From a bacterium (GTDB lineage Bacteria > Myxococcota_A > UBA9160 > SZUA-336), in NCBI GenBank assembly GCA_024226335.1, contig JAAELY010000522.1:1-55530 (forward strand): a DNA stretch of 55,530 nt. The letters are read 5' to 3'. Below, piece by piece: positions 43,873 to 50,106 of this stretch. Made by a program: the position numbers and the translations under genes. The notes below the pieces were generated by a model that searched no databases, was not told the DNA's origin, and saw only the letters and a list, made by a program, of their open reading frames with translations. Numbering within the stretch: position 1 is the first letter of the stretch; each line of letters begins with the position of its first letter.

Positions 43873-44550
43873 TCAGGCAATTCGCTTCAGCTCGCTCTGA
43901 ATCGCCTCTTCCAGGGCGCCGGGCTTGAGGCCAAAGGGACCGGGATCGCCCTGGAACGCCACTTTCCCACCCCGCCCTACGAGGTAGAGCCGAGTCGGAA
44001 GGGCACCGTATGCGCTGGCGATCTCATCGCCGATTCCGTCGATCACGACCGGTATCCGAATCTTCAGATGAACGGCGCAAGTCGCCGCGACCTCGTGCCG
44101 CTCGGCGTCCGTCGTAGGATCGTTGATACGAATGTCCTGGTCGCGATTCATGTTCACGACCCAGCCATCTTCCGGATGTGCTTCTCGTATGTAGACCACC
44201 GCGAAATCGACGCGATCGCGATAGCGCTCCCACAACCCGTGCAGCGCGTCCAACTGGACGCGAAAGGGAGGTCAGGTGTAGGAACCGAAGATGAGCGCCA
44301 CCGGGCGAGCGGCGGCGAGGGCCTGGAGATGAAAGATCTCCCCGGTCGACCGTTCGCTGCCGGTACTGAAATCGGCCACGGGAGACTCGAAGTCGAAAGC
44401 TATGTCGCCTTCGACCAAGTCGGCGGTGGCCAGTCGCTTCTGGTCGGGGTCCGCCATGATATCGGGAAGACCCTTGGGCGAGTCCTCGGGCGTGAAGGCC
44501 CTCCAGTCGAAGGTCGCCGCATCGGTCGGATCGTCATCGGATTTCGACAT
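43873..44550 (-). CDS. Iodothyronine deiodinase-like selenoprotein (UGA decoded as selenocysteine)
   Basis: Two frame-sharing pieces, 44272-44550 and 43873-44271, are joined by a TGA at 44274-44272. The protein around it reads RPVALIFGSYT-U-PPFRVQ, matching deiodinases, where GSCT-U-PPF carries the catalytic selenocysteine; here it is residue 93 of 225. Downstream, VDFAVVYIREAHPEDGW is the family hallmark with the active-site His, then IRIPVVIDGI and PTRLYLVGRGGKVAFQG complete the thioredoxin fold. The ATG has a strong AGGAGG site eight bases before it. A SECIS-type hairpin follows the TGA. Bacterial members are not known to act on thyroid hormone; dehalogenation or peroxide reduction are possible. 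It follows a cupin gene by 87 bases. The second piece alone has only a TTG and no ribosome site. Confidence 0.88.
44245..44274 (-). promoter_or_regulatory. UGA selenocysteine codon with bacterial SECIS hairpin
   Basis: After the UGA (44274-44272), nine bases lead to a perfect 7-bp stem, CGCGTCC-AGTT-GGACGCG (44262-44245). The distance from UGA to the apical loop is 16 bases and the loop has G at its second position, both within the accepted bacterial SECIS pattern recognised by SelB. A CCC/GGG pair may extend the stem across an internal loop. The hairpin lies inside the coding sequence, as bacterial SECIS elements do. Confidence 0.8.
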
Positions 44551-44637
44551 TCGGGTCCCTCCTCATTCCGCAGACTAGCGCATGCGGCCGGGCCGCTTCA
44601 GCTCACTTCTCTTCTTCCGCCCGATTCTCGCTTGCGA

Positions 44638-45042
44638 TCAGGGTGCAGGTAGCGGAGGGACGATCGAGAATCCCGGTGGTAGCTCATCGGTCATCTCCGG
44701 TGGCCGCGGCACATAGGCGAAGAAATAGCAGAGCGGCTCGTCACCGGTGTTGCGCGATGTGTGAGTAACGCCAGCGGGCACGAAGATCGCCTGTCCCTGT
44801 TCGACTTCGTAGTGATCGCCGTCGAGCTGCAAGCTCCCCCGTCCCGCGACGACGTAGTAGATCTCGTCGCTCGATGGGTGCACGTCGGGCGATCCTTCGC
44901 GACCGGGTGCGAGCCAATAGAGCCCGGCCGTCGTCCGTTCGGAGCCACAGTTCCCACGGTCGATGAGGAAACAGACCCGTTGGCTGCCATCCTCGGAGGC
45001 GACGTGCAAGGCGTCCTTCTGTCCGATTACGCGTTGATTCAC
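44638..45042 (-). CDS. Single-domain cupin protein
   Basis: A 134-residue cupin. Motif 1 is visible around GREGSPDVHPSSDEIYYVVAGRG (two metal-type residues, His and Glu, but the usual first His is replaced), and motif 2 around GQAIFVPAGVTHTSRNTG with the second His. Cupins may be dioxygenases, isomerases, halide-binding proteins or sensors. It lies 14 bases after an ACAD-fold flavoprotein and upstream of the selenoprotein in the same operon, so a role in the same pathway is likely. Confidence 0.8.
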   Translation of the reverse strand: MNQRVIGQKDALHVASEDGSQRVCFLIDRGNCGSERTTAGLYWLAPGREGSPDVHPSSDEIYYVVAGRGSLQLDGDHYEVEQGQAIFVPAGVTHTSRNTGDEPLCYFFAYVPRPPEMTDELPPGFSIVPPLPAP

Positions 45043-45056
45043 GGCTTCATTCTCCG

Positions 45057-46211
45057 TTAGCGGGTCGGCGCTTGCGCGACGAGCTGGCGACCGAAGGCTT
45101 CGAAATTGCTGTCCACGACGAAGATGTGCTGCGATGCGGCGAGCAGATCTCGGAGCAGTCGCTGCATCGGGCTGGTCGAGTAGAGACCACTCGCCCCGAT
45201 ATACCGGAAACCCATCGTGGCGGCGTCGAGTGCGGCCTGGGTGGCGTGGGTCGCCATCGCGCGAAGTTCGATCTCCAATTCGGGAGGCACGGTGTCACCC
45301 GCTCGACTGAGGGACTCCATTCGGCCGATCGCATCCATCGCATAGAGGCGCGACGCTGTGAGCGATGCTTGCGCGACGCCGAGATCGCGCAGGAATGACT
45401 CCCGGTCGGCAACGGACGTTCCAGACCCGAGGCGTTGCTTCGATTTCGCGACCACCGTGAGCTCTTCGATCGCTCTCTCTCCGACTCCGATGGCAAAACC
45501 GGCATGTATGGGTGCAACCTGCGGCACGACTCCAGGCCGGAACCTCAGACCTCCGCGAAGTGGCTCGGGGTTCGGGAACGCGTAGGTGAAACCCTCGGGC
45601 ACAAAGACTTCATCAAACGAGTAGTCGCAGCTCCCGGTGCCCTTGAGGCCTGCAACGTGCCAGCTGTCGGCTACTTGCACGCTCGTTTTCGGGATGATGA
45701 CCTGTATTGCCTCGGGTGGAGCGTCACCTTCGGCCTCGACAATGCATCCCGATAGGGTCCATTCCGATTGGTGGATGCCGCTCGCATAGCCCAGGCTACC
45801 ACTCGCGATGAAGCCTCCCTCTACGCGGCGCGCCCGCCCGAGCGGTGCGAGTTGACCCGCAACGACCGCGTCGACCTCGCTGCTGAAGATCTCGTCCGCA
45901 GCCTCCTGGCTGATGTACGCACCCATCATCGCGGTATGCGTCGACCCCACGGCCACGTTCCAACCCGCCGATGTGTCGGCGGCCGCCAGTGCAGCAACGA
46001 CTTCGAATTCGAGCAGTGGATCGGCCTCGAAGCCTCCCAACTCTGTGGGCCAGCACAGGCGAAACAGTTTCGCAGCGTGCAAGGCTTCGACGGCCGATCC
46101 GTCGAGGCAGCGCGCCTCCTCGGACGCCGCCGCAGATGCCTCGAGTGTCGGGCGAACCGTCTCGACGGCTCTCAGCAATTCCTTCCTCAGTGTCTCGCGA
46201 TCAACGCTCAT
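45057..46211 (-). CDS. Acyl-CoA dehydrogenase-fold flavoprotein, probable flavin-dependent monooxygenase (HsaA/DszC type)
   Basis: A 384-residue protein of the acyl-CoA dehydrogenase superfamily. DTSAGWNVAVGSTHTAMM and VEGGFIASGSLGYASGIHQS, then GTGSCDYSFDEVFVPEG, are typical of the group that uses reduced flavin to hydroxylate aromatic or steroid rings, not of true acyl-CoA dehydrogenases. The expected C-terminal Glu motif (EGTSEIQ) is missing and the end is IGASGLYSTSPMQRLLRDL. The start is ATG at 46211 with GGAGG six bases before it. Two bases separate it from the F420-type oxidoreductase gene. Confidence 0.82.
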   Translation of the reverse strand: MSVDRETLRKELLRAVETVRPTLEASAAASEEARCLDGSAVEALHAAKLFRLCWPTELGGFEADPLLEFEVVAALAAADTSAGWNVAVGSTHTAMMGAYISQEAADEIFSSEVDAVVAGQLAPLGRARRVEGGFIASGSLGYASGIHQSEWTLSGCIVEAEGDAPPEAIQVIIPKTSVQVADSWHVAGLKGTGSCDYSFDEVFVPEGFTYAFPNPEPLRGGLRFRPGVVPQVAPIHAGFAIGVGERAIEELTVVAKSKQRLGSGTSVADRESFLRDLGVAQASLTASRLYAMDAIGRMESLSRAGDTVPPELEIELRAMATHATQAALDAATMGFRYIGASGLYSTSPMQRLLRDLLAASQHIFVVDSNFEAFGRQLVAQAPTR

Positions 46212-46213
46212 TC

Positions 46214-47089
46214 TCATTCCTCCCATCGGGAAATTGTTAGTTCACGCACGTTCATGAGTGCCGGACCGATTTCTTTCACATCGAAACTCGGTGGCGGAAC
46301 CAGGATTCTGTGGGCGCCGAGATCCTCGTAACGACGGGCGACGTCGAAGCCGTCGGGCCCGAGGACGGCCGGATCGGCGACCGTAAACTCGAGGGCATTG
46401 GGATCGCGTCCCGCATCCAATGCGCTGGTCCGCGCCAGTTTGAAGAGGGCCGAAAGCTCCTCCGGGGACCCTTTGGCCGGAAAGAAGCCATCTCCAATTC
46501 GGCCGGCTCTACGCGCTGCGGCTTCGCTATGTCCACCGATGACGATCGGGATCGGCGAGGCCGGGTGCGGTGTCAGGCGCGTGCCTTGGAAACTGACATG
46601 CGTACTCTCGTAGGTGGCTACCGGCTCACTCCACAACGCACGAAGGGCGCCCACGTAGTCATCGTGACGTTGGCCTCGATGCTCGAACGGCACGCCAAGT
46701 GCGTCGAATTCTTCGCGCAACCAGCCGATACCAACCCCCAGACTAAAGCGGCCCCCGCTCAACCGATCGAGGGTCGCAGCCTGTTTCGCGACGACGAGTG
46801 GGTTGCGCTGAGGCAGGACGAGGATCCCGGTCGTGAAACGCAGGCGTTCGGTGATCGCAGCGGCATACGCATACCAGACGAGCGGATCGGCCATATCGGC
46901 CCGACCTTCACCCGGCACACGACCATCGTCGGAGTATGGATAGGACGAGGTGTAGTCGGTCGGCATCACGACGTGTTCGCCTGTCCACAGGGATTCGAAA
47001 CCGGCCTCTTCGGCTCCTCGGGCGATCGCCCGGGCGCCCTCCGGTCCAGCGAAGGTCATCACGGCGGCATACCAGACTCCGAACTTCAC
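46214..47089 (-). CDS. LLM-class oxidoreductase, probably F420-dependent
   Basis: A 291-residue luciferase-like TIM-barrel enzyme. GFESLWTGEHVVMPTDY, RLRFTTGILVLPQRNP, RLSGGRFSLGVGIGWLREEF and PIPIVIGGHSEAAARRAGRIGDGF are the F420-dependent LLM subfamily landmarks. F420 itself is supported by cofG and cofH in this window. It would reduce or oxidise a substrate by hydride transfer. It heads the leftward operon with the flavoprotein, cupin and selenoprotein. It is divergent from the LysR regulator, which probably controls it. Confidence 0.85.
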   Translation of the reverse strand: MKFGVWYAAVMTFAGPEGARAIARGAEEAGFESLWTGEHVVMPTDYTSSYPYSDDGRVPGEGRADMADPLVWYAYAAAITERLRFTTGILVLPQRNPLVVAKQAATLDRLSGGRFSLGVGIGWLREEFDALGVPFEHRGQRHDDYVGALRALWSEPVATYESTHVSFQGTRLTPHPASPIPIVIGGHSEAAARRAGRIGDGFFPAKGSPEELSALFKLARTSALDAGRDPNALEFTVADPAVLGPDGFDVARRYEDLGAHRILVPPPSFDVKEIGPALMNVRELTISRWEE

Positions 47090-47114
47090 GATCTCGTCCT
47101 CCTCGAGAGACCTT

Positions 47115-47131
47115 ATATCGAGCTACGATAT
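47115..47131. promoter_or_regulatory. Dyad ATATCG-N5-CGATAT in the LLM/LysR divergent region
   Basis: Perfect six-base arms lie 26 bases upstream of the LLM start in an unusually AT-rich gap. LysR-type regulators bind dyads of about this size (T-N11-A), and the spacing here is T-N12-A or T-N11-A depending on the base chosen. Close to the leftward promoter, it would be an activation or repression site. Confidence 0.5.
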
Positions 47132-47161
47132 GTCTGAGAACTATCAAATACTTGCCGATTG

Positions 47162-47176
47162 ATATCATTTTGATAT
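47162..47176. promoter_or_regulatory. Dyad ATATCA-N3-TGATAT next to the LysR gene start
   Basis: Perfect six-base arms begin 26 bases before the LysR start codon. It is related in sequence to the dyad at 47115-47131, and the two are separated by 30 bases. Two half-related sites in a divergent gap are the usual recognition and activation pair of LysR regulators. Confidence 0.5.
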
Positions 47177-47187
47177 ATCGTGGTTCG

Positions 47188-48117
47188 ATGCATTTGAACA
47201 TCCGCGTCGATCAACTCCTCTCGGTGTTGGCGATCACCGAGCACGGAACTCTGCGGGGCGCGGCCGTCGCACTCGGCACGTCCCAGCCGGCGCTATCGCG
47301 AACGCTGCGCGAGGTGGAGCGCATTCTGGACGTTCGCCTTTTCGAACGAGGTCCGCGCGGTGTCGCACCGACTCGATTCGGCCGCGCCGTAGCTCGCCAC
47401 GCGACGGTCATCCGCGCAGAAGCCCAACGGACCTTGCTCGACCTCGACGCACTGCGCAGTGCCGAGGCCGAACCCATAAGGCTGGGTGTGGTTCCAGTCG
47501 TCGCGGCACCGCTGGTCGCCGATGCAATCACCGAGACCCGCTGCGCTCATCCCGAAACGATCATTCGCATGGAAGCCCGGCCGCAGAGCGAGCTCCTCGA
47601 ACGACTCGCGGCGGGACACGTCGACCTCGTTCTAGGACCACTCGCCGATCCAGGTGAAGCCGGGCCTGGCTTCGAACAAACGAAGATCTTCAGCGAGGAT
47701 CTGTGCGTCATCGCGGGAAAGTCGCACCCGCTCGCGCGACGCCGGGGGGTCCTGTCACTCGAAGATCTGGCGGATCAAGAATGGCTACTGTCACCACACG
47801 GGTCGCACGAGCGATCGAGCGTCGATCTTGTGTTTCGGCGCGCTGGGCTCTCAGCGCCACCACCCAGGATCGAATCCGAGGATGTTCCGTTTCAGATGTA
47901 CACCGTGGCCACATCGAATCTACTCAGTGTCATTCAGAGATCCCAAGCGACGTTTGGCGCGGTCCTCGGCTTGCGTGAACTTCGCGTCGATCTGGGTACT
48001 CCAGCAGCCGATATCGGGGTGACGTATCCGATCGGCTCCCCGCTCCAGGAAACTGCGAAGGACCTGATTAGCGCGCTGAGGAAAGCGGCCGCGCGAGTCG
48101 GCCTCGTGCAGGGGTGA
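47188..48117 (+). CDS. LysR-family transcriptional regulator
   Basis: A 309-residue regulator. The N-terminal winged helix-turn-helix is HGTLRGAAVALGTSQPALSRTLREVERILDVRLFERG shortened to its core: AAVALGTSQPALSRTLRE. The C-terminal half is the periplasmic-binding-like effector domain (from about residue 90). The start is ATG at 47188; an upstream open frame to 46936 lies within the divergent gene. It is divergent from the LLM-type oxidoreductase, so it probably controls that operon, including the selenoprotein, in response to a pathway metabolite. Confidence 0.88.
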   Translation: MHLNIRVDQLLSVLAITEHGTLRGAAVALGTSQPALSRTLREVERILDVRLFERGPRGVAPTRFGRAVARHATVIRAEAQRTLLDLDALRSAEAEPIRLGVVPVVAAPLVADAITETRCAHPETIIRMEARPQSELLERLAAGHVDLVLGPLADPGEAGPGFEQTKIFSEDLCVIAGKSHPLARRRGVLSLEDLADQEWLLSPHGSHERSSVDLVFRRAGLSAPPPRIESEDVPFQMYTVATSNLLSVIQRSQATFGAVLGLRELRVDLGTPAADIGVTYPIGSPLQETAKDLISALRKAAARVGLVQG

Positions 48118-48121
48118 AAGG

Positions 48122-48595
48122 CTAGCCCGACGCTTTGGGTCGGCACGGAACCAGCACGCTGCGCCGGAAACGAATCGCGATTTCACCGTGCTGGTTGCGT
48201 CCGAGGGTTTCGACGCGAACGATGCCCTGATCGGGCCGGCTCTTCGATTTGCGCGCCTCCAGGATCTCGGTCACGGCATACAGCGTGTCGCCGTGGAAGG
48301 TCGGGCCGACGTGGTCGATGTTCTCGTAGGCGAGATTCGCGATGGCCTTGCCACTGATATCGGCCACCGTCATTCCTACGACGACGCTGAATACGAGCGG
48401 TCCCACCACGAGCCTCTGGCCGAACTCCGTCTGTGCAGCGTAGGCGGCATCGATGTGGAGAGGGTGCTGATTCATGGTGAGCAGTGCGAACTGCAGGTTG
48501 TCCGCTTCGGTGATCGTGCGCCCGGGCCAGTGCTCGATCACCTCGCCGACTCGAAAGTCCTCGTAGTAGCGTCCGTAGTTTTCGCGCGTGGCCAT
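48122..48595 (-). CDS. MaoC-like acyl-CoA hydratase
   Basis: A 157-residue hot-dog-fold protein. GRTITEADNLQFALLTMNQH with PLHIDAAYAAQTEFGQ is the MaoC hydratase centre; the usual catalytic Asp is Asn or a neighbouring position and the His is present. YENIDHVGPTFHGDTLYAV follows. Mesaconyl-CoA or enoyl-CoA hydration is the likely reaction. The ATG overlaps the upstream stop (TGATG). It is the third gene of the leftward acyl-CoA operon and converges on the LysR gene with 4 bases between. Confidence 0.85.
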   Translation of the reverse strand: MATRENYGRYYEDFRVGEVIEHWPGRTITEADNLQFALLTMNQHPLHIDAAYAAQTEFGQRLVVGPLVFSVVVGMTVADISGKAIANLAYENIDHVGPTFHGDTLYAVTEILEARKSKSRPDQGIVRVETLGRNQHGEIAIRFRRSVLVPCRPKASG

Positions 48596-50106
48596 CAGTC
48601 TGATTCCCCGGAGTTGCGAGCCCGATTGCGACGGAAGCGGGAGTCGCGCCACAGGTGCTCCAGTGTCGTCACGGCCGCATTGCCCGATGCGTAACACATC
48701 CGGCCAGTGGCCCGCACCGTGGTCGGTCCCGGATTTTCAGGGTTCGTGATCGCGAGCTCCGTTGCCGTGAGGATGGGTTTGTGGTGTTTCGCCGAAGCGT
48801 CGGAGGCCGCTGTTGCGAAGCGGGTGTCTTGACGTTCGTGGTAGGCCACGATGCGCTCGAGTCCGGGATCGGCGTGGAAGGGACCGGCCGCCAGAAGAGC
48901 GGCCTGGTTCGATTGGATTCCGAGGCCCAGGTAGATGATGGCGTCGATCTCGGGATGTGCAGCGACGACTTCCATCAGATCGGGGATCGTGTCCCGGGTC
49001 TCGCCACCGGCGAGATCGATCGGGTTGTGCCGACTCCAGCGGGGCGGGATGTGCCCGTCGATCGTCTCTCGCAGATCGTTCGGAAGTTCAACGAGTTCCA
49101 ATTCACTGCGCTCGATGGCCTCGGCCGTCTGGATCGCCCAGCCACCGGCCGTGCTGAACACCGCGGTACGTGGACCCGCGGGCAGAGGTTGCGTCGCGAA
49201 TCCCGCGGCCGCATCCCAGGCTTCTGGAATCGATGGCGCAATCGTCACGCCTGCGCGTCGCAGGGCATCGTCGAAGCCCGGACCCGTTGCCGTCGAACCC
49301 GTGTGCGCGGAGACCGCACGCGGGCCGATTCGCGAACCGCCGCTGCGCACCACGACCACCGGCATGCACTCGTTCGCCCGTGCGAGCCGCCGCACCAGAT
49401 CGTCGGAGTCTTGAACGTCTTCGAGATACACGAGGCCAACGTGAGTCTCTGGATCATCGACAAAGTAGTCGAGACAATCCGCTACCCCGATCTGAGCGCA
49501 GTTTCCGGCTGAGACCGCCCGACTGATCCCGATACCACACTGGCGAGCGTAGTTTCCAAAGGTCGAAATGAAGCCGCCCGATTGGCTGGCGATACCAATG
49601 TGGCCCGCCGGCGGCATGGGCGCAACGATCTGGGCGCACATCGATACCGGGGTCGAGATGATGCCTTGCCCGTTCGGTCCCACGATGAGCAGATCGAGTT
49701 CATCGGCCAGCTCGACCAGGGCTCGCTGTGCGGCGACCCCTTTGGCGCCCGCTTCGGCAAAGCCGGCACCCGCGATGAAGACGGCACGGGCTCCTCTGTT
49801 TGCGGCCTGCCTCAGCACGGCTTCGACAGCGGGTTGCGGAACACCTGAGAACACGAGATCTACGCGCGCGGCGGCGGGCAACTCATCGATGCTGGTGTAG
49901 GTTGGATCGCCTAACACGGGCTCGGCAGAAAGATTGGTTCCGTAGAGCTCGCCGGCAAAACCCATGGCCTTCAGGTTGTGATAAACCGAGAAACCGAATT
50001 TCCCCGGATGACTCGTCGCGCCGGCGACGACGATTCCCCCGGGTTCGAACAGGGCTTGCCAGTGCTCGGTTCGAGGTTTCAAGATGGCGACCTCAACGGA
50101 GCCCAC
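48595..50106 (-). CDS. NDP-forming acyl-CoA synthetase, alpha-type protein
   Basis: A 503-residue protein of the succinyl-CoA-ligase superfamily. The CoA-binding domain has IVVAGATSHPGKFGFSVYHN, and IGIASQSGGFISTFGNYA leads the flavodoxin-like domain. The phosphorylatable His is in VSAHTGSTATGPG. The third domain reaches about residue 480. The ATP-grasp beta part is absent both from the gene and from the window, so a partner subunit must be elsewhere if it acts as an acyl-CoA ligase. The start is GTG at 50106, overlapping the acyl-CoA dehydrogenase by 14 bases. Confidence 0.82.
   Translation of the reverse strand: MGSVEVAILKPRTEHWQALFEPGGIVVAGATSHPGKFGFSVYHNLKAMGFAGELYGTNLSAEPVLGDPTYTSIDELPAAARVDLVFSGVPQPAVEAVLRQAANRGARAVFIAGAGFAEAGAKGVAAQRALVELADELDLLIVGPNGQGIISTPVSMCAQIVAPMPPAGHIGIASQSGGFISTFGNYARQCGIGISRAVSAGNCAQIGVADCLDYFVDDPETHVGLVYLEDVQDSDDLVRRLARANECMPVVVVRSGGSRIGPRAVSAHTGSTATGPGFDDALRRAGVTIAPSIPEAWDAAAGFATQPLPAGPRTAVFSTAGGWAIQTAEAIERSELELVELPNDLRETIDGHIPPRWSRHNPIDLAGGETRDTIPDLMEVVAAHPEIDAIIYLGLGIQSNQAALLAAGPFHADPGLERIVAYHERQDTRFATAASDASAKHHKPILTATELAITNPENPGPTTVRATGRMCYASGNAAVTTLEHLWRDSRFRRNRARNSGESD

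Follow-up and report, generated by a model that had tools for sequence, protein, structure and literature searches.

The minus-strand gene at 43,873–44,550 of the window (the whole 55,530-nt stretch analysed here) is almost certainly a genuine selenoprotein gene, a single gene in which UGA is read as selenocysteine, although ORF finding with table 11 reports it as two. Animal deiodinases strip iodine from thyroid hormone; the product of this gene, a bacterial PF00837 selenoprotein, probably acts as a peroxiredoxin-like Sec93/Cys158 reductase. Members of the family have been on record since 2005, and what is new here is a cysteine in a later helix, present in 103 of 105 homologues that have no cysteine two residues before the selenocysteine. 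The features on which the description rests are as follows.

44,638–45,042, minus strand: upstream cupin gene (Pfam Cupin_2, 3.7e-19), 87 nt 5' of the selenoprotein gene
44,558–44,563, minus strand: Shine–Dalgarno sequence AGGAGG, 7 nt 5' of the ATG, read directly from the sequence
43,873–44,550, minus strand: complete deiodinase-like selenoprotein gene, 225 residues including Sec93, stop TGA 43,875–43,873
44,272–44,274, minus strand: UGA for selenocysteine 93, context GSYT-U-PPF; only TGA, TGC or TGT across 116 homologous sites
44,245–44,262, minus strand: bacterial SECIS-type hairpin CGCGUCC-AGUU-GGACGCG, from MFE folding, synonymous recoding and covariation
44,173–44,193, minus strand: Y120..E123-A-H125-P126, counterpart of the Dio proton-relay Tyr, Glu and His, from the homologue alignment
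44,077–44,079, minus strand: Cys158, candidate resolving cysteine in helix 148–161, from conservation and the AlphaFold2 helix

The UGA codon, the SECIS-type hairpin and the selenocysteine machinery

The first-pass annotation had read one frame from 44,550 to 43,873 broken only by TGA 44,274–44,272 within GSYT-U-PPF, and translation bears this out: the TGA, at codon 93, is the only internal stop. As it had expected of automated callers, table-11 ORF finding returns two pieces, 44,550–44,272 (92 aa) and 44,253–43,873 (126 aa). The strong ribosome site that it placed at the ATG is the AGGAGG listed above; inspection of the sequence upstream of the TTG of the second piece found none, and this TTG falls within the hairpin. 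The TGA could alternatively be a true stop, left by a pseudogene, a sequencing error or two separate genes, since table 11 reads TGA as a stop and the TTG could serve as the start of the second piece. We regard this as most improbable, as the identical TGA recurs at 92 sites whose records bear the labels of seven or more phyla, the protein stays conserved beyond it with cysteine as the sole alternative at the site, and the second piece has no ribosome site of its own. An alternative genetic code was also ruled out: a tRNA-Sec with a UCA anticodon is present, and the gene itself ends in TGA, which therefore does not serve as a sense codon in general.

The codon counts at the selenocysteine site are TGA 92, TGC 22 and TGT 2, with no other codon among the 116 sites, in a homologue set that is non-random (the patterns came from Sec members, and 80 of the 270 relatives confirmed in the scan of named genomes were used). 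PF00837 genes were found in 32 of 98 genomes (the window's own and its relatives), nearly always with exactly one internal TGA. Orthologues about 60–66% identical to the window protein carry the same TGA in several phyla. The window subtype forms a 19-row clade (support 100) of Sec members throughout, labelled Pseudomonadota, Actinomycetota, Chloroflexota, Acidobacteriota and Myxococcota; individual labels may be wrong, many of these records being metagenome bins, and most sequences overall come from metagenome-assembled genomes. The Cys forms are chiefly planctomycete, with the motif FGNFT-C-GPF. At least six changes between the Sec and Cys states occur across the whole tree, on which the position of the animal Dio sequences is unreliable owing to long branches. 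No close relative was found in the viral contigs searched.

The hairpin has seven perfect pairs and the loop AGUU (44,255–44,252) with G at loop position 2, as had been described from the sequence; the spacing of 16 nt from the UGA given with that description is the distance to the loop, and the stem of the MFE fold begins at 9 nt. Stems of at least seven pairs at the SECIS position follow 6 of the 1344 TGA triplets on both strands of the window, the Sec93 TGA included. Against plain shuffles, the fold of the 50 nt after the UGA is unimpressive (z = -0.74) and that of 37 nt reaches z = -1.95. A synonymous-recoding test of the hairpin itself, in which each gene is compared with 300 recodings that preserve protein and codon usage, is more informative. 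The window hairpin gives z = -3.0 (p = 0.003), with 1 in 300 recodings folding equally well. Across 82 Sec genes, hairpin strength exceeds that of the recodings (mean z -1.99, 49 genes at p <= 0.05), whereas across 24 Cys genes it does not (mean z +0.12, none at p <= 0.05).

The two arms covary as well, in a comparison whose arm exchanges ignore relatedness among the homologues: pairing in the Sec genes is 5.1 of 6 positions, compared with 4.12 when arms are swapped among homologues, and 0 of 500 swaps reach 5.1, while the Cys genes pair at 3.0, compared with 2.83 after swapping, a value reached by 75 of 500. The Sec/Cys contrast is a stronger argument than the covariation, although it still contains the difference in lineage between the Sec and the Cys forms. 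The Cys homologues serve here as a natural negative control and give comparative evidence for the SECIS of the Sec genes. At the base matching loop position 2 of the window hairpin, 77 of 80 distinct Sec sequences have G. An Rfam search of the region, a weak test for a short hairpin within coding sequence, returned no RNA family.

The search for the selenocysteine machinery that the first-pass annotation had proposed yielded all four genes in the source assembly (5.75 Mb in 556 contigs). selA scores 514 bits, selB is one 740-residue frame with both N-terminal and C-terminal matches, and selC, the tRNA-Sec with its UCA anticodon, scores 72.7 bits and is also found by ARAGORN. selD has an in-frame TGA in its catalytic site, MSEIRLTQLVPAGG-U-ARK. 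With this machinery in the genome, and with no residue but Sec or Cys at the homologous sites, the claim of a selenoprotein is upheld. The co-occurrence of selA with the PF00837 gene (31 of 32 genomes with the gene, compared with 56 of 66 without it; p = 0.10, not significant) adds little, because selA is near-universal among the relatives. The selD gene (L021, contig C545, about 2440–1500, minus strand) encodes a selenoprotein itself, with Sec in a GG-U-ARK site.

Family, fold and active site compared with the animal deiodinases

The window protein matches PF00837 (T4_deiodinase) with an E value of 2.9e-28 and 99.2 bits, well over the curated cut-off of 27. Its closest solved structures by phmmer against the PDB are mouse Dio3 (6e-20) and mouse Dio2 (3e-18), in agreement with the deiodinase likeness noted earlier. 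It also matches NCBIfam NF038285 (deiodinase family protein) across the catalytic half (E 5.8e-53); this model is longer, with 347 positions, and the score of 180.6 bits lies below its 250-bit cut-off. An AlphaFold2 model built from 20 homologues has a mean pLDDT of 81, with most of the core above 90 and the N-terminal 40 residues poor. Foldseek with this model returns Dio2 and Dio3 as the best two matches, then ResA/TlpA-type proteins and peroxiredoxins. The AhpC-TSA match of the window protein (18.3 bits) is under the Pfam cut-off of 26, and that of a paralogue reaches 4e-7.

Bacterial deiodinase-like selenoproteins with SECIS elements were described in the 2005 Sargasso Sea data, with four Sec and six Cys members (PMC1088965), and the 2008 GOS survey counted 22 Sec and 21 Cys homologues, as its table is read (PMC2398784). 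The window gene is no different in kind, sharing with these the in-frame UGA, the SECIS just downstream, the apical-loop G, PF00837 and the existence of Cys homologues. Later reviews give the family motif as UxxC (PMC9312934, PMC13188914), but this motif occurs in none of the 105 sequences examined; the +3 residue is Phe in the window protein and Phe, Tyr or Trp in the 105 homologues. Among the open-licence papers searched, none reports experiments on a bacterial deiodinase-like protein.

The window protein and the animal Dio1–3 (PDB 4tr3, 9h48) share the thioredoxin fold, the GS-x-T-U-PPF motif, the Y..E-x-HPxDGW loop and overall sequence. They differ in the position of the SECIS, which lies in the 3' UTR in the animal genes and adjoins the UGA here, and the window copy has no visible membrane anchor. 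The proton relay proposed for Dio2 and Dio3 consists of Ser127, Thr129, Tyr157, Glu160, His162 and His182 in Dio2 numbering (PMC11592359). Five of these six residues are retained in the window protein, and three of them are kept almost without exception in the homologues (Y120 in 105 of 105, E123 in 104, H125 in 105). Over the 105 bacterial rows, F88, G89, Y120, H125 and P185 are invariant or virtually so, T92, E123, P126, D128, W130 and R151 are nearly invariant, and the residues kept include 90, 92, 93, 120, 123, 125, 126 and 128–130; S90 is retained in 84 and replaced by Asn in 19, the latter mostly Cys forms. The sixth relay residue, His182 of Dio2, is replaced by Pro145, a position that is His in 29 and Pro in 71 of the 105. 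The animal enzymes also have a basic residue, Arg275 in Dio3 and Lys241 in Dio2, for which a role in clamping the hormone has been proposed; the window protein has Pro203 in its place. Dio3 Phe258 corresponds to Pro185, which is Pro in 105 of 105 homologues.

These replacements bear on whether the protein could deiodinate thyroid hormone, as a true iodothyronine deiodinase does. Sequence homology with Dio2 and Dio3 speaks for such an activity, but the hormone-site residues are not kept, which makes thyroid hormone unlikely as the substrate, and the family occurs in environmental bacteria of many phyla; we consider this reading very improbable.

The residue two before the selenocysteine is Cys in animal Dio1 and Dio3 and Tyr91 in the window protein. 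The first-pass annotation had noted this Tyr correctly, but it is no oddity of the window gene: it follows a bacterial rule, with Tyr in 76, Phe in 27 and Ile in 2 of the 105 homologues and Cys in none.

The genome holds two more PF00837 genes, both with GSYT-U-PPF, namely a full-length paralogue (L001) and a decayed-looking one (L003). The latter (1270–1893, contig C256) differs from membrane-anchored relatives by internal deletions and a shift of frame and has lost the distal cysteine; either decay of the gene or faulty assembly is the probable cause. In another subtype, seen in L031 (minus strand), L042, L045, L047 and L049, the Sec deiodinase domain is fused on its N-terminal side to a long hydrophobic stretch that probably crosses the membrane several times. 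In L031 this membrane-type copy is convergent with a soluble-type copy on the opposite strand.

Cys158 and the proposed catalytic cycle

The window protein has a single cysteine, Cys158. Of the 105 homologues, 103 have a cysteine at one of the positions 155, 158 and 159, within about one turn of a single helix (148–161 in the AlphaFold2 model), and the two exceptions without a helix cysteine, L050 and L051, are both among the longest branches. Exactly two redox residues, Sec or Cys at 93 and one further cysteine, are present in 82 of 107 aligned cores. In the animal deiodinases, the proximal cysteine at -2 resolves the selenocysteine of DIO1 and DIO3 and is Ala in DIO2 (PMC9141512). In human DIO1 a bond forms between residue 126 and Cys124, two residues before it, and the role of the distal Cys194 remains elusive (PMC9141512). 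The distal cysteine of Dio3 is not the equivalent of Cys158; counted from the shared Arg151 it lies seven residues further on, aligned with I166, so that the window cysteine comes seven residues earlier and inside the helix. The proposed difference from Dio1 and Dio3 is a later-helix cysteine, Cys158, in place of the proximal one.

A catalytic cycle can be proposed on this basis. SelB with Sec-tRNA, bound to the hairpin just past the UGA, would direct the ribosome to insert selenocysteine at codon 93, and the product would be a thioredoxin-fold reductase. The Sec93 selenolate, surrounded by S90, T92, Y120, E123 and H125 in the manner of the Dio proton relay, would attack an oxidised or halogenated substrate. 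Cys158 in the later helix would then resolve the oxidised selenium to a selenenyl-sulfide, which a thiol reductant such as thioredoxin could re-reduce. We consider a Sec93/Cys158 redox cycle likely; the Sec93–Cys158 selenenyl-sulfide and its thiol-protein reductant we infer by analogy with two-site peroxiredoxins. The two-Cys peroxiredoxins (AhpC-TSA/Redoxin) share the fold and a second redox residue in the helix between the next two strands, but the window protein has no peroxiredoxin motif.

With a near-invariant distal cysteine and no proximal one, the bacterial family isolates the question of how the selenium is re-reduced, and it makes testable what deiodinases do without thyroid hormone and how their selenium is recycled. 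We lean towards the view that the bacterial deiodinase-like proteins are a distinct class, in which the later-helix cysteine recycles the selenocysteine and the substrate is a non-hormone organohalide or peroxide, and that the animal enzymes are a specialised offshoot of an ancient family of bacterial redox proteins.

Substrate and gene neighbourhood

Two kinds of substrate were weighed for the Sec93/Cys158 reductase. With a peroxide as substrate, the protein would in effect be a selenium peroxiredoxin guarding the cell against hydroperoxides. The fold neighbours of peroxiredoxin and ResA type, the weak AhpC-TSA match (4e-7 in the paralogue), the Sec/Cys pair typical of two-site peroxidases and the existence of Cys forms, mainly in planctomycetes, are all consistent with this. 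On the other hand, the peroxiredoxin motif PxxxTxxC is absent on reading the sequence, and the Dio-typical loop E-x-H-P-x-D-G-W is retained; a peroxide is a plausible substrate, a little short of an even chance. The other candidate is a halogenated aromatic compound, acted on by a reductive dehalogenase that would work like a Dio on compounds other than hormones. The retained Dio active-site core, with its five relay residues, points this way, as do the monooxygenase-type genes nearby in the window and the glutathione S-transferase and ring-hydroxylating oxygenase genes that adjoin a set of gammaproteobacterial orthologues; the prolines that replace the second His of the relay (Pro145) and the basic clamp residue (Pro203), and the differing orthologue neighbourhoods, argue against it, and we hold this possibility to be rather doubtful.

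The gene neighbourhood is a poor guide to the substrate of the reductase, as the neighbours are not conserved among orthologues. In the window, a luciferase-like monooxygenase, an acyl-CoA-dehydrogenase-type protein and the cupin lie upstream on the same strand. The cupin gene is possibly co-transcribed with the selenoprotein gene; it is not conserved beside the orthologues. In the close group of gammaproteobacterial orthologues, the glutathione S-transferase adjoins the gene, with a Rieske ring hydroxylase, an FMO-like protein and a CoA-transferase nearby. These neighbours weakly suggest catabolism of aromatic or xenobiotic compounds.

The minus-strand run at 44,638–50,106 of the window (CoA ligase, MaoC dehydratase, luciferase-like monooxygenase, acyl-CoA-dehydrogenase type and cupin), with a LysR regulator on the opposite strand among its genes, looks like a catabolic cluster. 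Elsewhere in the family, two planctomycete loci (L086 and L093) each hold both a Sec and a Cys paralogue. Near the start of L093 and of L100 lies a further TGA gene with the motif FGCLT-U-PPFLWNVS, which has no helix cysteine and has about 370 residues downstream with an EF-hand-looking part. Finally, a Fimbriimonadia contig (L131) carries three successive deiodinase-like genes, each with TGA at the site.
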